NCBI GenBank assembly: GCA_019247775.1
Contig: JAFBAN010000188.1
Span: 1-32,491, forward strand
Length of the DNA stretch: 32,491 bases
Source: Chitinophagaceae bacterium
Lineage (GTDB): Bacteria > Bacteroidota > Bacteroidia > Chitinophagales > Chitinophagaceae
Direction of reading: 5' to 3'
Below the pieces are notes generated by a model. That model made no database searches. It was given only the letters and a program-made list of their open reading frames with translations, and was not told the origin of the DNA. Made by a program: the position numbers and the translations under genes. Positions 3,705 through 31,270 of this stretch are shown here, piece after piece. Position 1 is the stretch's first letter. Every line of letters begins with the position of its first letter.

Positions 3705-4128
3705 GTTTCGCTAAGAGTGGATAAGAGCAAAGGAGTGGACAGTAGAGATCTCTCCTTGGCTCTTTCACTCCTTTGACCTCTTAGCGAAACCCTGCTTTGA
3801 ATTTCGGAATGTTGCATTGCGTGAGCGTTTCGCTAAAAGAGGAACGAAGTGAAGAAGGAAAGAAGGATCATGCTCAATCCCTCCTTATCTTTTTTGCTTC
3901 TTTAACCTCTTACCGAAACCCTGTTTTGAATTTCGGACTTTTGTAGTGCGCGAGCGTTTCGCTAAAAGAGGAACGAAGTGAAGAAGGAAAGAAGGATCAT
4001 GCTTAATCCCTTCTTATCTTTTTTACTTCTTTAACCTCTTAGCGAAACCGTGCTCTGAATTTGGGACTGTTGTACTTCGGGAGAGTTTCGCTAAAAGAAG
4101 AACGAAGCGAAGAAGGAAAGAAGGATCA
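3705..4128. repeat. Tandem array of about 3.3 palindromic units (122-129 bp)
   Basis: The decamer GTTTCGCTAA recurs at 3705, 3827, 3956 and 4085, giving periods of 122, 129 and 129 bp. Within the first three units it is matched by its complement (TTAGCGAAAC, or a one-base variant in unit 2) about 80-90 bp later. Each unit is therefore a long imperfect hairpin with a purine-rich arm (GAAGAAGGAAAGAAGG) and a pyrimidine-rich arm, followed by a spacer of about 35 bp. Units 2 and 3 are nearly identical; unit 1 is diverged. The fourth unit has only its left arm, and its final tca is the TGA stop of ligD on the minus strand. There are no unique spacers of CRISPR type, and I see no ORF in the array that looks real. 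Confidence 0.85.
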
Positions 4129-6207
4129 GAGGGCGTTTAATTTTTTCAGGGCTTTGGTCATATCGATGCCTTTGCCGAGTACGGGTTTGAAAAGGTCGCC
4201 TTCGGACTTAAGTCTTTCCACTGCGTTGTGGATATTAAAATCTGTCATGCGCAATCCCTTTTTCAGTTCTTCCCAGTGCAGCGGCATAGACACTGTTGCA
4301 CCGGGTTTGGGACGGAGTGAATACGCCGTAGCCAAGGTCGCCTGCGGACGGTTCTGCAGAAAGTCTATATACAATCCACCCTTGCGATTGGCTTTGATTC
4401 GTTCGATACTGGTAAACCGCGGCAATCGCTGATGCACCAGTTTGGCAATGACGCGACCGAACTCTTTTGATTGTTCGTAAGTATATTTTCTGCCGAGGGG
4501 AATGTAGATGTGAATGCCCGTAGAGCCCGAAGTTTTGCAGCAGGCTTGCACGCCGGCTGCATCCAGGATCTGTTTGGTCACCTGCGCGGCTTCGATCACT
4601 TTGTCGAAGCCGTGTTTATCCGGGTCGAGATCGATGATGCACCAGTCGGGATGGTCCGGCGTCTGAACGGTGCTGCTCCATGGATTCATTTCAATACAGC
4701 CGAGCGATGCGATGTACAGCAGACTCGATTCATCGGTACATACCATGAACTCCTTATCGCGCGCCTCGGCTTCACTGCGGTAGGGGAAAGTGGCTATCCA
4801 GCCCGGCGCTTTTCCTTTTACGTCCTTCTGGTAAAAACTTTCACCATTGATACCGTTGGGATGCCTGTTCAGCGATTGCGGCCTGTCTTTCATATATGGC
4901 AGCATAAAAGGGGCCACCTGGTAATAATAATTGAGCATATCGCGCTTGGTGATCTTCTCTTTCGGCCAGTAGAGCTTGCTCAGGTTGGTAAATTTCAGTT
5001 CGTGGCCATTGATGCTTCTCACCTGGGTTTCATCTGTTGGGTTCAGCAGGGTTTTCCGCTCTTTTTTCGATGATGCGCTGATGATCTTTTTTCTGTGCAG
5101 GGCCGAGCTTCGCTGCACGACCTCTGTTACCGGCTTTTCCTCTTCCAGTACCACCTGTTTGGCCTGCTTATCATCGCGCATGCCCTCGAAGGAGGGGTGG
5201 CGCATGATGCCTTCGGTTGTGAGTTCGCGGTAAGAGACTTCGCAGACCAGTTTCGGTTTCAGCCAGGTGGCTTCTGCTTTTGGCGGATCCGGTCTGAACC
5301 GCGACGGTTTATTGATATCGGGAATCGATTCAAAAGGGGAGCGGCCGGTGATAAGCGGTTCGAACTGCTTCATCATCTGCTGCTGCATCGATACCGTGAA
5401 GCCGGTCCCTATCTTACCGGTATAAACAAGTTTACCTCCGCGGCGCACGCCTACGAGCAGCGAACTGAAAAGTTTTGAACTGCCTTCGTTGCGCGTGAAT
5501 CCGCCGATCACCATTTCCTGGCGCTTGGCAGTTTTGATCTTCAGCCATTCTTTGGAACGCAGTCCGGGTGTATATACCGAATCCGCTTTTTTGGCGATAA
5601 TGCCTTCGAGTCCCATTTTCTCCGCGATATGAAAGAATTCGGTACCGGTAGCATCGAAGTTTTCGCTGAGCAGGATCGTTTGGTTGGGTCTGATGGTCTT
5701 GCGCAGGATCGCCCTTCTTTTAGTGAGCGGCAGATCCAGCAGTGAGCGTCCATCCAGCCAGAGTATATCGAACAGGTAATATTTCAGATCGCCATCCGCT
5801 TCGCTGCGCCATCCCTGCAGGCCGCTGAAATCTGCCAGGCCGTTCCGGTCGGTCACAACGATCTCTCCGTCTACTACTGCCTGCACATTCAGCTGTTTTA
5901 AGGCCGCATGAACAGGATAGAACTTTTCGTCGAAAGATTTATTGTTGCGCGATGCGATCGTGACCTTGTTGCCCTGCAGATAAGCCAGTGCACGGTATCC
6001 ATCCCATTTTACCTCGTACACCCAGCCCGGTTCGTCGAAAGGTTGGTCGACCAGTGTAGCCAGCATGGGCTGCAGATTGACAGGCTGTTTGGATCGCCGG
6101 CCTGGGGGAGCCGTTGCGGTTTTCTCCACAGCCCGTTTGCGTTTTTTTGCCGGACTGCTGCGGTCTTTCCGGCCATCGGCCGTTTTTTTAACTGTGCTGC
6201 TTGCCAT
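4126..6207 (-). CDS. ligD: ATP-dependent DNA ligase LigD, ligase-polymerase form
   Basis: The product is a 693-aa repair ligase of the bacterial NHEJ type. A Lys/Arg/Ser-rich N-terminal tail of about 40 residues precedes the adenylation domain: EVKWDGYR with catalytic Lys67, ASRNN, VVDGEIV, EGIIAKK and EWLKIK. An OB-fold follows. From about residue 405 comes the primase-like polymerase domain, with DLDPD at 526-530 and the SGSTGIHIYIP motif. The 3'-phosphoesterase domain of larger LigDs is absent, so the order is ligase then polymerase, as in Bacillus LigD. I chose the ATG at 6207 (MASSTVKK) over the upstream TTG used by the ORF track, because the extra nine residues add nothing recognisable. 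Ku, the normal partner, is not in the window. The stop codon lies in a repeat unit. Confidence 0.93.
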   Translation of the reverse strand: MASSTVKKTADGRKDRSSPAKKRKRAVEKTATAPPGRRSKQPVNLQPMLATLVDQPFDEPGWVYEVKWDGYRALAYLQGNKVTIASRNNKSFDEKFYPVHAALKQLNVQAVVDGEIVVTDRNGLADFSGLQGWRSEADGDLKYYLFDILWLDGRSLLDLPLTKRRAILRKTIRPNQTILLSENFDATGTEFFHIAEKMGLEGIIAKKADSVYTPGLRSKEWLKIKTAKRQEMVIGGFTRNEGSSKLFSSLLVGVRRGGKLVYTGKIGTGFTVSMQQQMMKQFEPLITGRSPFESIPDINKPSRFRPDPPKAEATWLKPKLVCEVSYRELTTEGIMRHPSFEGMRDDKQAKQVVLEEEKPVTEVVQRSSALHRKKIISASSKKERKTLLNPTDETQVRSINGHELKFTNLSKLYWPKEKITKRDMLNYYYQVAPFMLPYMKDRPQSLNRHPNGINGESFYQKDVKGKAPGWIATFPYRSEAEARDKEFMVCTDESSLLYIASLGCIEMNPWSSTVQTPDHPDWCIIDLDPDKHGFDKVIEAAQVTKQILDAAGVQACCKTSGSTGIHIYIPLGRKYTYEQSKEFGRVIAKLVHQRLPRFTSIERIKANRKGGLYIDFLQNRPQATLATAYSLRPKPGATVSMPLHWEELKKGLRMTDFNIHNAVERLKSEGDLFKPVLGKGIDMTKALKKLNAL

Positions 6208-6300
6208 ATCATGCGTTAAAATCTGCCGCTGCAACGATGAAAAAACTGTACCATGAATGGCATAAAGTTTTAAGTCGTATCAGTAGTTTAGTAATGCAAT

Positions 6301-6861
6301 ATGAGAGCTAATCGCAAAGGCAGTTTACCGCCCCCTGAACTGGAATTCAACGATAGCCGACTGATCCGTTTCTACCGCGGACTTGAAAAAGATCCTGCGG
6401 GCAGAATGATCGAAGACATCTGGCAGATGACGACGCCGGAACTGGAACGGAACCATGACTATATCCAGTGGTTGTTCCCGCTTCCGCAGCGCAGCAATTA
6501 CAGTCCAGGAGCGCCGGTATTAACACAGCAGGATATCGATAGTTTTATCCGCGATGAAAATCTGCGGGAGCGGGTACTTATTTCCTATGGATTAATGCTG
6601 CGTTTTTACGGTCTCGAGCAGCGACAGTTGCATGGTCAGCCGGTATTGGTTCCCGCCGCCGATTTTGCCCAGCGGGCCGCTGAATGGTTGCAGCCGGGCA
6701 ATCACAATTACCTTCGTATTTCTCGGATCCTGAATTTCCTGATGCTGGTGCAGATGAAAGCTGAAGCGCGCATCCTGTTTTCCGCACTGGAAGAATTGAA
6801 CCTGCTTCACCATAAAAAGGTCGGAAGCGCATTTTCTTACTGGCGGGCGGCCGTTACCTGA
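6301..6861 (+). CDS. OGFr-domain (opioid growth factor receptor-like) protein
   Basis: This 186-aa protein matches the conserved N-terminal region of the opioid growth factor receptor family, which is also found in bacteria. Residues around 50-70 read HDYIQWLFPLPQRS, the family hallmark, followed by PVLTQQDIDSF and a helical stretch ISYGLMLRFYGL. The biochemical role of bacterial members is not established, and the eukaryotic name should not be read as function. It is predicted to be soluble and cytoplasmic. It is divergent from ligD, with a 93-bp gap holding both promoters. TAGTTTAG, one base off the TAnnTTTG consensus, lies about 15 nt before the ATG. Confidence 0.85.
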   Translation: MRANRKGSLPPPELEFNDSRLIRFYRGLEKDPAGRMIEDIWQMTTPELERNHDYIQWLFPLPQRSNYSPGAPVLTQQDIDSFIRDENLRERVLISYGLMLRFYGLEQRQLHGQPVLVPAADFAQRAAEWLQPGNHNYLRISRILNFLMLVQMKAEARILFSALEELNLLHHKKVGSAFSYWRAAVT

Positions 6862-7133: not shown

Positions 7134-7667
7134 CTAGTTGCTGGCGGGCAGCTGTTGCGCCCTGCGGCTCACCATGGCATTGGCGATCACTACCGAAAGC
7201 ACGCCGATGGCTGCGCCGGCCAGTACGTCTGAAAGCCAGTGCTTTTTATTGTATACCCGCATCGCTGCCGTGGCAACTGCAACTCCATAGCCGGCATAAG
7301 CGATCAGGGGCGATTTGTCTTTGGTAGCCCTCCGCAACAGTTCGGCGCCCATGAATGCGGTAGCTGTATGACCCGAAGGAAATGAGTCGCGGTCGAGCCG
7401 GGAGCCCGGACGGTTCCTCGGTACCAGTTTTTTCAGCGGTTCGATGATCCCATTCATCACCGCTTCCGATGCTGCGATCATTTTGGCATGGTACATCAAA
7501 CTCGAACCCGTACCCGATCTGTCTTTGTTGAACACCAGGGAAGATACGATCGGCGTCCATTTCAGGACAGTGTCGATGGCCGGCGAAACGATCAGCCTGT
7601 CGCCGGTAAGGTTCTTGGTCACAAAATCGTCTACCGATTGTACTGTTTTCAGAGGTTGGGTTGCCAT
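7134..7667 (-). CDS. PAP2 family lipid phosphatase
   Basis: This 177-aa member of the type 2 phosphatidic acid phosphatase superfamily carries all three catalytic motifs: K79-x6-RP (KKLVPRNRP), PSGH at 97-100, and R137-x5-H143-x3-D147 (RVYNKKHWLSD). His100 and His143 would be the phosphoryl-transfer residues. The protein is hydrophobic after residue 100 (LIAYAGYGVAVATAAMRV and GVLSVVIANAMV) and is expected in the inner membrane, acting on lipid phosphates such as undecaprenyl or phosphatidyl species. The substrate cannot be told. It lies 35 bp downstream of the MmgE/PrpD gene on the same strand and is probably co-transcribed. Confidence 0.9.
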   Translation of the reverse strand: MATQPLKTVQSVDDFVTKNLTGDRLIVSPAIDTVLKWTPIVSSLVFNKDRSGTGSSLMYHAKMIAASEAVMNGIIEPLKKLVPRNRPGSRLDRDSFPSGHTATAFMGAELLRRATKDKSPLIAYAGYGVAVATAAMRVYNKKHWLSDVLAGAAIGVLSVVIANAMVSRRAQQLPASN

Positions 7668-7702: not shown

Positions 7703-9112
7703 TCAGTTCCCTATCCTGGCCAGCAGGCCGGTAAGTTGGGAAGCCGGCAGTTTATCCAGGTTTTGAACAATCTCAACGGCTTCGTCCTGCCATGACTCAC
7801 TCACAATACCATCGCACAGACGGCGGAATTTCCCGATGGTCTGTTCCCAACCGAAAGGACGGGAAAAAAATCCTTCGTAGTCCTCCTTCTCGCAGGCACA
7901 GGTACTGCCCCCTTTGAGATGAACTTCCACCTTGGTTTTCATCTTGTCGGGATAAGCCCGGGTATACGGATCCAGCACGCCTGCCAGGGTCACCGGTTTA
8001 TGGATGGGGGAAACCGTACCCACATTTACCTTCTGCAAAAGTTCCTGCACATCGCGGCTGCGGATGCGCCCGGGTTCGAACTGCGCCGGATACACCTCGC
8101 CATCCAGCAACGCTACTGCCGCGAGATAAGGTAAACTATGATCGGCCTGTTCCTTCGTGTCTACCGATTTCCTGTCGCCGTAAGCGCCGCCGCCGATGAT
8201 ATGGTAGGCAGTGAGAAAAGTGCTGATCTCTATTTTTTCGATATCTGCCGCACTGAATCCCTCCGAACGCTGCAGATCGAGCAGAGCTTCCAGCGTTGCC
8301 TGGGAATGCACTTCCGCATTGTAACGTTTGAGCACGCATTTGTGCACGAGTTCGAAGTTCTCCTGCTGCCAGTCGTAATCCAGTTTCATACCGAATATCT
8401 CCCCGAAGCCTTTGGGCCCTTCGAAAATGGCCACCGGGCCGGTCATGCCCTGCTTGGCAAGTAAGATAACGTTAACGCAATCGAGGGCGTCCATTGATGA
8501 CGCGAATCCTTTCCATTCGTAGGTATAGGATGCGCGGCTGGTGACCATTGCCGCCAGAGAACAGCCGGCGATGCCGAGTGCATGGGCTGTCTGTTCAACC
8601 GTGAGATCAAATAACCTGGCCGCAGATGCTGTCATCGAATAGCAGACCAGCAGGGTATGATCGATGCCTTCTTTCATTACGGGGATCTCTTCCACCAGCC
8701 TGCACTGGATCTGATAGGCTACGGCCATCGCCGTCAGCAGGTCCCGGCCGCTGGCATCCCGAAAATGACTGGCCGCAAGCAGGGGTCCCAGATTATCGCT
8801 GGGATGGCAGGTCGCTTCCTTGCCCATATAGTTGTCCATAAAATCAGGATAGCGGACCAGCGCGGTATAGAGTTGTGCGGCCCGGTCGTAGGGCAGTTTG
8901 CCCGCGAGGGTTTCGCAGGCGCCACCTTCCGCCAATATGTTGAGCTGGTTCAACAGTTTTTTGATGGGAGCGCGGGTGCTGGCGTATACCATGGAACCGA
9001 TGGCGTCGAGCAGATGTCTTTTCAGCTGGTCGATATTCGACTCGCCGACATTTTCATACCGCGCACCCAGCGCAAACTCAGCGATCTTGAAATTCTGCAG
9101 GTTCTTATCCAT
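7703..9112 (-). CDS. MmgE/PrpD family protein
   Basis: The 469-aa product matches the MmgE/PrpD (2-methylcitrate dehydratase-like) family in length and layout: an all-helical N-terminal domain (LLDAIGSMVYAS, then YPDFMDNYMGKEATCHPSDNLGPLLAA) and a smaller C-terminal alpha/beta domain (HSQATLEALLDL). The HPSDN segment is the family's recognisable active-site loop. PrpD proper dehydrates 2-methylcitrate in propionate catabolism. Here no prpB or prpC neighbour is present, so the substrate is uncertain and I give no symbol. The start at 9112 is an ATG with no competing upstream start. The 106-bp gap upstream carries a CTCCAGACT repeat cluster. Confidence 0.88.
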   Translation of the reverse strand: MDKNLQNFKIAEFALGARYENVGESNIDQLKRHLLDAIGSMVYASTRAPIKKLLNQLNILAEGGACETLAGKLPYDRAAQLYTALVRYPDFMDNYMGKEATCHPSDNLGPLLAASHFRDASGRDLLTAMAVAYQIQCRLVEEIPVMKEGIDHTLLVCYSMTASAARLFDLTVEQTAHALGIAGCSLAAMVTSRASYTYEWKGFASSMDALDCVNVILLAKQGMTGPVAIFEGPKGFGEIFGMKLDYDWQQENFELVHKCVLKRYNAEVHSQATLEALLDLQRSEGFSAADIEKIEISTFLTAYHIIGGGAYGDRKSVDTKEQADHSLPYLAAVALLDGEVYPAQFEPGRIRSRDVQELLQKVNVGTVSPIHKPVTLAGVLDPYTRAYPDKMKTKVEVHLKGGSTCACEKEDYEGFFSRPFGWEQTIGKFRRLCDGIVSESWQDEAVEIVQNLDKLPASQLTGLLARIGN

Positions 9113-9183: not shown

Positions 9184-9217
9184 GACTCCAGACTCCAAAC
9201 TCCAGACTCCAGACTCA
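9184..9217. repeat. CTCCAGACT/CTCCAAACT short repeat cluster
   Basis: Four consecutive near-copies of a 7- to 8-nt word (actccag, actccaa) fill the gap between the channel homologue and the MmgE/PrpD gene. The same word cluster recurs at 21231-21262 (inverted), 21295-21326 and inside tsaD at 30460-30490. Confidence 0.8.
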
Positions 9218-9218
9218 C

Positions 9219-10172
9219 TCACATTTGCCGCTGCGCTTTAAGTATAAACCAGCTATTCAGCAGCGCATACACGATCAGGACGATCAGTGCGGCGGTCTTA
9301 TCGAATTTCTTCGAGGCCCCGGGCTTCCCGTTCTTCAATAGTTTCAGCGAGAACACCGAAGCGGTCACTATTACGAAAATAAAGAACAGGGTAATACCGT
9401 GCAGGGTATCCACCAACGTGAAGGACGTGGATTCGGGTAAGGTGGAATCGATGATATACTTATTGCCGATCACCGCAAACAACGCGCCCACACCCAGGCT
9501 GAACCTCGAATCGATATAGTCGGAATGAATATAGAAGCAGATAAAAGCGATCAGGAAAGCCACGTACATACCAAGGAAGATCTTTGCGAACAGATCGGCG
9601 GCTTCGCGTGAAATAACGATCCTGACCCTCATGGTCCCATATTCCGTATGCGGTTTCGGATAGGACGAGTCGCCAAAAGCCGTTTCGTAGGGCCTGATAC
9701 CCGAACTCATCGAAAAACTGTCGATGGCCCAGCCGCGCAGTGTAAAACGCGGGTCGAAATTATTGCCCAGGGTATCCACGGCAAACACCAGCGACCTGGA
9801 ATCATACTGCGAATTCTCGATCCCCAGCCGTAACCGTTGTTTATCGAAGGGGAAATTATTGATCCGCCAGGAATCCTTCATCACGCACTGCAGTTTCATC
9901 AGCATATAAATGCCGTTAGAAGAATCGATGGTGGTATACAGTTTGGAAAAGCTTTTGGCCTGCGGGATCTCCAGGTTCTGATCGAAATTGAACGACTTGT
10001 TCCTGTACCGGAGCCAGAGCCAGAATGTGATCGTGTATTCGTTCTGCTTGAAATCGATGTCATGGATGCTGGTGATATAAATGCCGGTGCGCACCGTATC
10101 CGGCTTTGGTGACTGAGCCTGGATCGCATTTATGATCAGACAGCAAAAACTGCAAAGCAGTATCTTCTTCAT
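9219..10172 (-). CDS. Pentameric ligand-gated ion channel homologue (Cys-loop receptor family)
   Basis: This 317-aa protein has a signal peptide (MKKILLCSFCCLIINAIQAQ) and an extracellular beta-rich domain of about 170 residues containing WRINNFPFDKQ. This is the FPFD loop equivalent to the Cys-loop, without the cysteines, as in other prokaryotic members. Four membrane helices follow at about 193-214, 222-241, 252-276 and 291-313. Helix 2 (SLGVGALFAVIGNKYII) is followed by the short TLP turn typical after pore helix M2. With the N-terminus outside and four helices, it would form a pentameric channel in the inner membrane. Ligand and ion selectivity are unknown. I chose the ATG at 10172 because the upstream TTG start only adds seven residues before a normal signal peptide. 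Confidence 0.85.
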   Translation of the reverse strand: MKKILLCSFCCLIINAIQAQSPKPDTVRTGIYITSIHDIDFKQNEYTITFWLWLRYRNKSFNFDQNLEIPQAKSFSKLYTTIDSSNGIYMLMKLQCVMKDSWRINNFPFDKQRLRLGIENSQYDSRSLVFAVDTLGNNFDPRFTLRGWAIDSFSMSSGIRPYETAFGDSSYPKPHTEYGTMRVRIVISREAADLFAKIFLGMYVAFLIAFICFYIHSDYIDSRFSLGVGALFAVIGNKYIIDSTLPESTSFTLVDTLHGITLFFIFVIVTASVFSLKLLKNGKPGASKKFDKTAALIVLIVYALLNSWFILKAQRQM

Positions 10173-10201: not shown

Positions 10202-10276
10202 TTTTTTACCGCAGAGGCGCAGAGACGCGGAGGCAAAGGATCATCTTGCTTAACTCTGCGCCTTTGCGGTAAAAAA
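10202..10276. repeat. Long inverted repeat of the CCGCAGAGGCGCAGAG family
   Basis: Two 23-nt arms (TTTTTTACCGCAGAGGCGCA... and its complement, one G-T wobble) are separated by 29 nt. The arms start with T6 and end with A6, so on neither strand is there a T tract after the hairpin, and it is not a standard intrinsic terminator. A 28-nt piece (10208-10235) is repeated exactly at 20627-20654, and a diverged copy lies at 18236-18267. Confidence 0.85.
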
Positions 10277-10290
10277 GAGAAGTCGGGGGC

Positions 10291-10869
10291 CTACTGGTAC
10301 CCAAGTAAAGCTCTTTGAGAAATATCAAACGCGATCATCTTTTCATAAAGTTCCAGTCTCGATAAACCTGCCGCCACGGCAAGCGCTTCATGCGTATGCA
10401 CGAGCGGCAAATGTTTTTCGATCTGTTCTTTCTGGCCTAGCAGCGTCTGCCGCAGTTCCATCAGCAGTTTGCCGAGGTTGTTTTCGCCCGCTCCATTGCA
10501 TACACCCCAGAATGTATCGTTCCAGTCATTGCCTTCTATCAGTTCGGCGTCGCCGGTGGCAAGCAGCGCTCGTGTCAGCAATGGCTCGCGGCCCCCGAAT
10601 TTGAGGGCCAGCAATGCTTTCATTACGCCCAGTTTTTTGTCGCGCGTCCAGCCGGGATCAGTAGCCAGATCATGTGCGGCCATATATTCTTTTGCCTCGC
10701 CTGGAGTGGGGCAGGATCGTATTTTCCTTTTGATCTCATCGTCTGCTGTTTTGGATGCGGCGTATGCATGTTCGAGTGTCGGAAAAAGCAAGCCATCCCA
10801 CTCGATGGAACAGGGCCAGAAATTGGAGAGGAACCTGTGGGTGTTCTGGAAAGTCAGGATCGGTTGCAT
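10291..10869 (-). CDS. NADAR family protein (YbiA-like N-glycosidase)
   Basis: The 192-aa product fits the NADAR family: FQNTHRFLSNFWPCSIEWDG near the start, then FPTLEHAYAASKT, AHDLATDPGWTRDKKLGVMKALLALKF and, towards the end, GNDWNDTFWGVCNGAGENNLGKLLMELR. Family members cleave N-glycosidic bonds, for example in riboflavin-pathway intermediates (YbiA/RibX) or in ADP-ribosylated substrates; which applies here is unknown. I moved the start from 10914 to the ATG at 10869 because the first 15 residues of the longer ORF (MGTYKIRNRKLEIPN) come from an intergenic GAAATC-rich repeat and the domain starts right after residue 16. The gene precedes the channel gene on the same strand. Confidence 0.9.
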   Translation of the reverse strand: MQPILTFQNTHRFLSNFWPCSIEWDGLLFPTLEHAYAASKTADDEIKRKIRSCPTPGEAKEYMAAHDLATDPGWTRDKKLGVMKALLALKFGGREPLLTRALLATGDAELIEGNDWNDTFWGVCNGAGENNLGKLLMELRQTLLGQKEQIEKHLPLVHTHEALAVAAGLSRLELYEKMIAFDISQRALLGYQ

Positions 10870-10976
10870 GTTTGGGATTTCCAATTTACGATTTCTGATT
10901 TTGTAAGTTCCCATTTTCGATTGCTAATTCCTGGTGGAAGGCTGTTTATCGAATCGGAAATCGGAAATCAGAATTA

Positions 10977-18235: not shown

Positions 18236-18267
18236 CTCCGCGCCTCTGCGCCTCCGCGGTAAAAGAG
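18236..18267. repeat. Diverged copy of the CCGCAGAGGCGCAGAG dispersed repeat
   Basis: CTCCGCGCCTCTGCGCCTCC followed by GCGGTAAAAGAG is the reverse complement of a variant of the repeats at 10202-10276 and 20626-20654. It lies in the gap after the outer-membrane barrel gene. Only one arm is present here. Confidence 0.75.
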
Positions 18268-18315: not shown

Positions 18316-18452
18316 AAGAACATGAGAAGCAGAGTTCACGCAGAGCGTACCCCCGAATTGCGGTACCTTTTTTTGGCCGTAACCCCTCATTGCCCTAATA
18401 TTGCACCCCTACGCAATTACTAATTATTCATTATTAATTACTAATTGTCCTC

Positions 18453-20625: not shown

Positions 20626-20654
20626 AACCGCAGAGGCGCAGAGACGCGGAGGCA
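20626..20654. repeat. Copy of the CCGCAGAGGCGCAGAGACGC dispersed repeat
   Basis: Twenty-eight nucleotides (20627-20654) are identical to 10208-10235. The copy lies in the gap between the 166-aa gene and hscB and directly precedes two period-7 tandem tracts. Confidence 0.9.
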
Positions 20655-20664
20655 GCCGCACAGT

Positions 20665-20727
20665 ATTCACCATTCACCATTCACCATTCACCATTCACGC
20701 CTCACGTCTCACGTCTCACGCCTCACG
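20665..20727. repeat. Two adjoining period-7 tandem tracts (ATTCACC)n and (G[T/C]CTCAC)n
   Basis: ATTCACC is repeated nearly five times (20665-20698), then GCCTCAC/GTCTCAC four times (20699-20726). The second tract contains the hscB stop codon (tca at 20723-20725). Related words occur at the sdhC-sdhA junction (27815-27873). Confidence 0.9.
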
Positions 20728-21230: not shown

Positions 21231-21326
21231 AGTCTGGAGTTAGGAGTTAGGAGTCTGGAGTAGAGTTCAGGGTTAAGAGTTTTCGTTGAAAAAGTACTCC
21301 AGACTCCAGACTCCTAACTCCAGACT
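21231..21326. repeat. Inverted pair of CTCCAGACT/TAACTCC repeats
   Basis: The arm at 21231-21262 (AGTCTGGAGTTAGGAGTTAG...) and the arm at 21295-21326 are near-perfect reverse complements over about 32 nt, with a 32-nt loop. They lie between the divergent starts of hscB and the LYS1-like gene. They use the same words as the clusters at 9184-9217 and inside tsaD. Confidence 0.85.
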
Positions 21327-21343
21327 CGCCACTCATTCTGTCC

Positions 21344-28625: not shown

Positions 28626-28740
28626 GTTTGGAGTTTGGGGTTTGGCGTTTGGAGTTGTAATTTGATTCTCTAGCTCAAATTATAAAGGGCGAAATGGTAT
28701 AAGACGAATAACCCCAAACCCCAAACTCCAAACCCCAAAC
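28626..28740. repeat. Inverted pair of GTTTGGAGTTTGGGG repeats
   Basis: A G/T-rich arm at 28626-28657 and a C/A-rich arm at 28710-28740 are imperfect reverse complements. Each is built from a period of about 7-8 nt (TTTGGAG/TTTGGGG). They lie between the divergent sdhC and ABC permease genes. Confidence 0.8.
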
Positions 28741-30196: not shown

Positions 30197-31270
30197 ATGT
30201 CAGAAAAACATCCAGGTGTAGGACATTTAACTCCCCCTTTAGGGGGCTGGGAGGTGGGGGTGGTAATTCTCGCAATCGAATCCTCCTGCGATGAAACCTC
30301 CGCCGCAGTCTGCGTGGATGGCAAGATCCTCTCGAACCATATCGCCAACCAGACCGTTCACGAAAAGTATGGTGGCGTGGTTCCCGAACTCGCCAGCCGC
30401 GCCCATATGCAGAACATTGTACCCGTAGTCGACATCGCCCTCAAAAATGCTTTCCCCCAACTCCAGACTCCTGACTCCAGACTCCAGACTATAAACGCCA
30501 TAGCGTTTACCAATTCCCCCGGCCTCATAGGCAGCCTGCTGGTGGGTGCGCAGTTTGCCAAATCGCTGGCTTTGTCGCTCGGGAAGCCGCTGATCGCGGT
30601 GCACCATATGCAGGCCCATGTGCTGGCCAATCTGATCGGCGATCCGCGGCCATCATTCCCGTTCCTGTGCCTGACGGTAAGCGGCGGACATACACAGATC
30701 GTATTGGCCCGCTCGCCGCTGCAGCTGGAAGTGATCGGTGAGACCATCGACGATGCCGCCGGCGAAGCTTTTGATAAGACAGCCAAACTGCTTGGCCTGC
30801 CTTACCCGGGTGGGCCGTTGGTTGACAGGTATGCAAAAGAGGGTGATCCGCTTGCTTTCAAATTTTCGCAGCCGCAGATCCCCGGGCTGGACTTTTCATT
30901 CAGCGGACTGAAAACATCCGTGCTGTATTTTCTGCAAAAACAGCCGCAGGGATTCATTGAAGAACATCTTGCCGATCTCTGCGCTTCGGTGCAGTATACG
31001 ATCATCCAGATCCTGATCAAAAAACTGAAAAAGGCGGTGGACCAGACCGGGGTAAAAGAAGTCTGTATTGCCGGCGGCGTCAGCGCCAATAGCGGATTGA
31101 GAACGGCATTGCAGGAAACAGGGGCGCAGCTCGGATGGAGAACTTATATCCCCGCTTTTCAATATTGTACCGACAATGCCGCCATGATCGCGATCACCGC
31201 CTACTATAAATACCAGGCTGGACAGTTTGCTTCCCTGGACGCCAGTCCTACCGCCCGCGCCGAATGGTGA
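30197..31270 (+). CDS. tsaD: tRNA N6-adenosine threonylcarbamoyltransferase TsaD
   Basis: This Kae1/Qri7-type enzyme transfers the threonylcarbamoyl group to A37 of ANN-decoding tRNAs. ILAIESSCDETSAA opens the ASKHA fold, HxxxH at 137-141 (HMQAH) gives the metal ligands, SGGHTQIV and DDAAGEAFDKTAKLLGLPYPGG are family signatures, and CTDNAAMIA ends the active site. As tracked it is 357 aa. Residues 1-21 (with TPPLGGW) translate a dispersed C/G-rich repeat, and the GTG at 30260, 5 nt after GGAGG, would give a normal 336-aa protein. That start may be the real one. Residues 89-97 (LQTPDSRLQ) translate another dispersed repeat lying in frame, in a loop before INAIAFT. Confidence 0.93.
   Translation: MSEKHPGVGHLTPPLGGWEVGVVILAIESSCDETSAAVCVDGKILSNHIANQTVHEKYGGVVPELASRAHMQNIVPVVDIALKNAFPQLQTPDSRLQTINAIAFTNSPGLIGSLLVGAQFAKSLALSLGKPLIAVHHMQAHVLANLIGDPRPSFPFLCLTVSGGHTQIVLARSPLQLEVIGETIDDAAGEAFDKTAKLLGLPYPGGPLVDRYAKEGDPLAFKFSQPQIPGLDFSFSGLKTSVLYFLQKQPQGFIEEHLADLCASVQYTIIQILIKKLKKAVDQTGVKEVCIAGGVSANSGLRTALQETGAQLGWRTYIPAFQYCTDNAAMIAITAYYKYQAGQFASLDASPTARAEW
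30228..30262 (+). repeat. CCCCCTTTAGGGGG hairpin repeat at the tsaD 5' end
   Basis: CCCCC-TTTA-GGGGG (30232-30245) is followed by CTGGGAGGTGGGGGTGG, which includes a GGAGG sequence. It is an inverted homologue of 30068-30100. It may hide or present the ribosome-binding site for the GTG start of tsaD. Confidence 0.7.
30460..30490 (+). repeat. CTCCAGACT repeat cluster inside the tsaD coding sequence
   Basis: ACTCCAGACTCCTGACTCCA and further ACTCCAGACT words match the intergenic clusters at 9184-9217 and 21295-21326, but here they are read in frame as LQTPDSRLQT. The surrounding protein aligns normally with TsaD on both sides. Confidence 0.85.

Follow-up and report, generated by a model that had tools for sequence, protein, structure and literature searches.

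Fast synaptic signalling relies on pentameric ligand-gated ion channels (pLGICs) as its receptors. Their relatives in bacteria, which usually lack the Cys-loop cysteines, serve as standard structural models, and the natural role and the ligand are known for very few of them. GLIC, the proton-gated channel of Gloeobacter violaceus, is the best natural bacterial match in the PDB to the protein described here, while ELIC, sTeLIC and DeCLIC are further bacterial pLGICs which are Cys-less, as is this protein; DeCLIC differs from it in having a large N-terminal domain. Cytophaga hutchinsonii belongs to the same phylum, Bacteroidota, as the source of the DNA analysed here. Its ART-LGICs are members of the same superfamily, and one of their three versions has the same simple architecture of an extracellular domain (ECD) followed by a transmembrane domain (TMD); the other two are built differently, Cytophaga being listed among the MCP-N/Cache fusions, and the accessible part of that account mentions neither a short ECD nor the GNKY motif described below (Tasneem et al. 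2004, PMC549065). For the superfamily as a whole, Jaiteh et al. 2016 (PMC4795631) listed the most conserved positions, which are used here as the standard of comparison.

The window, meaning the whole analysed stretch of 32,491 nucleotides from a Chitinophagaceae bacterium (contig JAFBAN010000188.1), carries a gene whose product is a member of this superfamily, and whose features are the following.

9219-10172, minus strand: coding sequence of the pLGIC homologue, 317 aa (ATG-to-stop open reading frame; profile, PDB and fold matches; model)
10116-10172, minus strand: signal-peptide-like N-terminus, residues 1-19, MKKILLCSFCCLIINAIQA (read directly from the sequence)
9606-10115, minus strand: periplasmic domain of ligand-binding type, residues 20-189, with eight predicted strands (Pfam PF02931, model)
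9960-10004, minus strand: shortened beta2-to-beta5 connection, residues 57-71 (alignments, model, spacing)
9843-9854, minus strand: Pro loop FPFD, residues 107-110 (sequence and alignment)
9606-9608, minus strand: pre-M1 Arg189, expected salt-bridge partner of Pro-loop Asp110 (invariant)
9531-9599, minus strand: predicted M1 helix, residues 192-214, with Gly201 at the place of the kink proline (model, alignment)
9435-9512, minus strand: M2 pore segment from -2' to 23', residues 221-246, DSRFSLGVGALFAVIGNKYIIDSTLP (alignment register, conservation)
9333-9416, minus strand: predicted M3 helix, residues 253-280 (model)
9228-9323, minus strand: predicted M4 helix, residues 284-315, the least conserved part (model, conservation)

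Homology of the product to pLGICs is far above chance. The Pfam ligand-binding model PF02931 (Neur_chan_LBD) matches at E=9.1e-8 with 32.2 bits, above its gathering cutoff of 26, and two further models match below their curated cutoffs, namely NCBIfam NF033918 (LGIC_1; 8.7e-15, 54.9 bits against a cutoff of 500) and TIGR00860 (the LIC model; 1.5e-14); Neur_chan_memb, the Pfam channel-domain model, found no match in the protein. A phmmer search of the PDB with the single sequence put pLGICs first, GLIC scoring about 1e-12; with a profile of the family, GLIC reached 1e-28 and a GLIC-glycine receptor chimera 6e-34, nearly the whole length being aligned. An AlphaFold2 single-chain model, computed with the protein and 81 relatives as input, has a pLDDT of 89.2 and a pTM of 0.76, and contains eight strands followed by four helices (residues 192-214, 220-244, 253-280 and 284-315). 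Foldseek matched this model to GLIC, GABA-A and glycine receptors over 310-330 columns (E about 1e-19, TM mostly 0.75-0.84), so that the topology of a beta-sandwich ECD and four transmembrane helices is present, with eight strands instead of ten. The nicotinic, GABA-A and glycine receptors are thus confirmed as relatives of this bacterial protein. The assignment to the Cys-loop receptor family made in the preliminary description holds over the full length: profile, PDB sequence and fold searches all lead to the pLGIC fold, and none assigned another one. Its open reading frame is also exact, with the minus strand, left unstated there, now added, and the signal peptide, beta-rich N-terminal domain, FPFD loop and four C-terminal helices which it listed were all found in the sequence and in the model. 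The protein starts with the signal-peptide-like MKKILLCSFCCLIINAIQAQ, and most relatives possess a hydrophobic leader with AQ or a similar pair at its end. The gene is single copy in the source genome, as expected for a homopentamer.

Several signatures of the superfamily are retained. The [F/Y]PxD motif of the Pro loop is present as FPFD, its proline and aspartate being invariant across the alignment, and the beta9 tryptophan is found as W148, aligned to GWDI of GLIC. The pre-M1 arginine, known to form a salt bridge with the Pro-loop aspartate (PMC4795631), is accompanied by the M2 arginine at 0' (R223) and the proline of the M2-M3 loop (P246), both invariant across 100 close relatives. Cysteines flanking the Pro loop are absent at the disulfide positions in the sequence and the alignment, and the protein is therefore not a Cys-loop receptor in the strict sense. 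The proline usual at M1 14' is replaced by Gly201, invariant in the same 100 relatives; in the superfamily this position is proline in 77% and glycine in 5%, and the M1 glycine is accordingly a minority variant of a residue which is not a defining requirement (PMC4795631). Phenylalanine at M2 9', where leucine is usual, occurs in 13% of the superfamily (PMC4795631).

The second departure concerns the ECD. In the alignment with the GLIC chimera, 35 residues of the query face 56 of the chain (query 65-101, chain 55-112), and the family profile, when aligned with the PDB, needs 20 inserted columns at this position of the ECD. The distance from the conserved beta1 glycine to the Pro-loop proline is 78-83 residues in all 34 proteins with the GNKY motif in M2 and 79 in relatives on Azospirillum and Streptomyces plasmids, against 99 in GLIC (single-sequence PDB alignment). 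In the AlphaFold2 model, likewise, residues 57-71 form a short connection, and there are eight strands compared with the usual ten. Judged from alignments and model, the segment missing from the ECD is predicted to be beta3, the WxP loop A and beta4. Loop A is part of the classical agonist site. The short ECD is also common to several relatives without GNKY, and hence marks a larger bacterial group; no solved structure was found which combines a GNKY M2, an M1 glycine and a short ECD.

Several differences separate the protein from GLIC, DeCLIC and the animal receptors. GLIC shares its fold, domain order, Pro loop, pre-M1 arginine and M2-M3 proline, as well as the lack of Cys-loop cysteines and of an intracellular domain, but the structural alignment gives about 18% identity, and from beta2 to beta6, in the loop A region, GLIC has 21 residues more; it also carries the M1 proline, Ile 9', His 11', Ala 13' and Ile 16' in place of M1 Gly, Phe 9', Val 11', Gly 13' and Tyr 16'. 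DeCLIC also appears to be longer around loop A, as suggested by its spacing in an alignment to a short-ECD protein, and GNKY was not seen in the one M2 alignment of DeCLIC examined. Animal glycine and GABA-A receptors share the overall fold (TM about 0.8), and the TMD of the glycine receptor aligns without gaps; unlike them, the present protein lacks both the Cys-loop cysteines and an M3-M4 intracellular domain, and its ECD is short.

The pore segment is the most conserved part of the protein, as expected if the pore matters. Its register was set by the ungapped alignment with the glycine receptor M2, with which the GLIC alignment agrees. A near-invariant motif, RF-L-VG--FA--GNKY, runs through M2 across the relatives: R0', F1', L3', V5', G6', F9', A10', G13', N14', K15', Y16' and P23' never vary in 100 close relatives, and 12 of 25 M2 positions are invariant in 82 sequences. 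Mean pairwise identity is highest in M2 (88%); the extracellular halves reach 65-71%, and M4 reaches 46%. In closely related pairs dN/dS is 0.012-0.063, and the subfamily is under strong purifying selection; a pseudogene is ruled out by the intact frames together with dN/dS values of 0.01-0.06. Acidic residues stand at both mouths of the pore, with D221 at -2' (in 95% of the 100 close relatives) and D218 at -5' (in all of them) on the inner side and D242 at 19' on the outer side. These rings suggest cation selectivity, to which Asp -2' and -5' inside and Asp 19' outside would contribute. In DeCLIC, the closed state narrows at 9' and 16', and acidic rings of the cytoplasmic pore mouth led to its being classed as cation-selective (PMC9897478); Phe 9', Tyr 16' and Asp -2' of the present protein stand at the equivalent positions.

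Anion selectivity has to be weighed against this, since the TMD resembles the glycine receptor M2 without gaps and the invariant Lys 15' could favour anions. Glycine receptors are indeed the best TMD matches in the PDB, at a non-significant E=0.07, and Arg 0' is invariant along with Lys 15', but -2' is aspartate and not proline, 19' is aspartate as well, and position 15' normally points to the neighbouring helices and not to the lumen. Moreover, 79% of the superfamily has Arg or Lys at 0' (PMC4795631), so that this residue is not diagnostic, and an anion channel is considered unlikely. A proton-gated channel acting as an acid sensor in the manner of GLIC, the closest solved natural bacterial relative, has a similarly small probability: it would need no organic ligand site, making the loss of loop A tolerable, but the proton-sensing His 11' of GLIC (H235) is replaced by valine or alanine in the subfamily, and homology to GLIC is distant (18-19% identity in the structural alignment). 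It is quite improbable that the protein is a non-conducting or mainly structural receptor of pLGIC fold, which would bind a periplasmic ligand and signal by conformation or by binding a partner with no ion flow. The lining of the pore is unusual, with pore-facing glycines at 2', 6' and 13' beside the large side chains of Phe 9' and Tyr 16'; so is the lack of the M1 proline. In a non-channel, however, nothing would keep M2 from drifting, yet it is the most conserved segment, and the residues of coupling (FPxD, pre-M1 Arg, M2-M3 Pro) are retained.

The gene therefore probably encodes a subunit of a homopentameric, Pro-loop (Cys-less) pLGIC of the inner membrane, gated by a periplasmic ligand and probably selective for cations; pentamer, conduction, gating, selectivity and type of ligand are what we infer from the features above. 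The signal peptide would export the subunit and place it in the inner membrane with the ligand-binding domain in the periplasm, where a small ligand or ion would bind at the subunit interface, while five M2 helices would line the pore. The signal would then travel across the interface of FPFD loop, Arg189 and M2-M3 proline and open the gates, for which the rings of Phe 9' and Tyr 16' are the most likely candidates. Near the expected interface lie conserved residues of aromatic or acidic type (W51, W53, Y162, E163, F166, D168 and Y178); as a speculation, a ligand that is cationic or amine-like might fit them. Among functional proposals in the accessible part of the earlier literature, the closest is that of a chemoreceptor (Tasneem et al. 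2004, PMC549065). For the GNKY proteins as a group it is tentatively proposed, as a possibility somewhat short of an even chance, that ligand binding does without the classical loop A, and that M1 and M2 move during gating unlike those of all structurally characterised pLGICs. In this proposal the ligand-binding domain would be reduced to eight strands by the loss of beta3, loop A and beta4, M1 would be hinged at its glycine, and the pore helix would be frozen, with Gly 6', Phe 9', Gly 13' and Asn 14'-Lys 15'-Tyr 16'.

Prokaryotic members had been described as few, which the present counts contradict for this subfamily alone: a scan of one genome per species with the motifs D[SP]RF[GS]L.VG and LFA..[GA]NKY returned 433 encoded relatives. 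The best 80 of the 433 belong to Chitinophaga, Mucilaginibacter, Pedobacter, Ferruginibacter, Sediminibacterium, related genera and metagenome-assembled genomes. Within the family, 55 of the 299 sampled genomes are positive (18%), most of them with relatives at 56-69% identity, and profile searches found 34 positive genomes among 395 of the class (9%) and 26 among 396 of the phylum. The subfamily is centred on Bacteroidota, being common but patchy in those of soil and water. Tandem copies occur in some genomes (L041, L042; four in G949). An Azospirillum plasmid protein (L172) possesses the same GNKY pore and M1 glycine, so that the type is not limited to Bacteroidota; relatives on plasmids were found only in Azospirillum and Streptomyces, at 24-29% identity. 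The L172 gene, at 4908-5948 of the Azospirillum B510 plasmid region, lies amid substrate-binding proteins, an alanine racemase and an MFS transporter on the same strand. A mobile or viral origin was rejected, as no encoded relative was found in viral contigs or phage records. In a tree of 55 sequences, the 34 GNKY proteins fall on one side of a branch with SH-aLRT 87, which drops to 27 when the M2 columns are removed; GNKY was for this reason rejected as a proven clade, and a single origin is compatible with the tree but goes no further. Two Bacteroidota pLGICs (L167, L168) carry a large extra N-terminal region resembling, by eye, a Cache-type sensor, like the fusions in the accessible part of Tasneem et al. 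No paper joining pLGICs with these genera was found in the openly readable literature, and an earlier description may exist outside it.

What is added to the known presence of pLGICs in bacteria is a widespread and strongly conserved subfamily without the M1 proline and loop A, two features usually held central, the one as the kink of M1 and the other as a segment of the agonist site. It extends under strong selection across Chitinophaga, Mucilaginibacter, Pedobacter and their relatives; such proteins bear on the extent to which the machinery of gating can be reduced, and, with culturable strains in Chitinophaga and Pedobacter, on the physiological role of a bacterial pLGIC.

The surroundings of the gene in the window are as follows.

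7703-9112, minus strand: MmgE/PrpD gene, downstream of the pLGIC gene after a gap of 106 bp
7134-7667, minus strand: PAP2 gene, downstream of MmgE/PrpD after a gap of 35 bp
10291-10914, minus strand: NADAR-domain protein gene, adjoining the pLGIC gene upstream
10208-10270, no strand assigned: REP-like palindrome between the NADAR and pLGIC genes (fold z=-5.35, repeated genome-wide)

As the preliminary description reported, the pLGIC stop is followed on the same strand, after 106 bp, by the MmgE/PrpD and PAP2 genes, but as pointers to function these fail. Neither these two nor the NADAR gene recurs beside relatives in 32 regions, 80 named loci and 13 further regions; the neighbours differ from genus to genus and also inside the source's own genus, and a function read from them was rejected. 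One operon with MmgE/PrpD and PAP2 for sensing propionate or lipid phosphates, which the shared strand and the gaps of 106 bp and 35 bp might suggest, is very improbable, given that other neighbours were found in further Chitinophagaceae, among them G167 (L043) of the same genus, and among the 80 named relatives. The pLGIC gene looks like a standalone gene, which the REP-like palindrome ACCGCAGAGGCGCAGAG probably separates from NADAR transcription; this has 74 matches in the genome with at most 2 mismatches, where the reversed control has 4, and the repeat is also seen in the window at 18244-18260 and 20627-20643. The NADAR protein matches the NCBIfam anti-phage NADAR model below cutoff (46.8 bits against 240). 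Elsewhere, in two genomes, more distant GNKY paralogues (L032, 5577-6563; L033, 4118-5074) lie directly downstream of a cluster which, from reading the sequences, we take to be cytochrome oxidase/SCO/DUF420-like; such a cluster was absent beside the other examined members of that subclade.

Tandem arrays in the window mostly have a period of 7 or a multiple of 7. Nine of the 13 rows reported by TRF have a period of 7 and two more a period of 14 or 21; arrays lie at 9184-9216, 18415-18446, 20665-20727, 21236-21327, 28626-28656, 28710-28740 and 30460-30490, with differing units (GACTCCA, AATTATT, ATTCACC, TCACGCC, GTTTGGA and AACCCCA), and one period-7 array is also present in the same-genus region L043. 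At 3748-4128, a unit of 129 bp is repeated three times directly beside the open reading frame 4126-6234, presumably an ATP-dependent DNA ligase D. Finally, a bacterial protein with the opioid growth factor receptor conserved region (OGFr_N, E=1e-24) is encoded at 6301-6861 on the plus strand.
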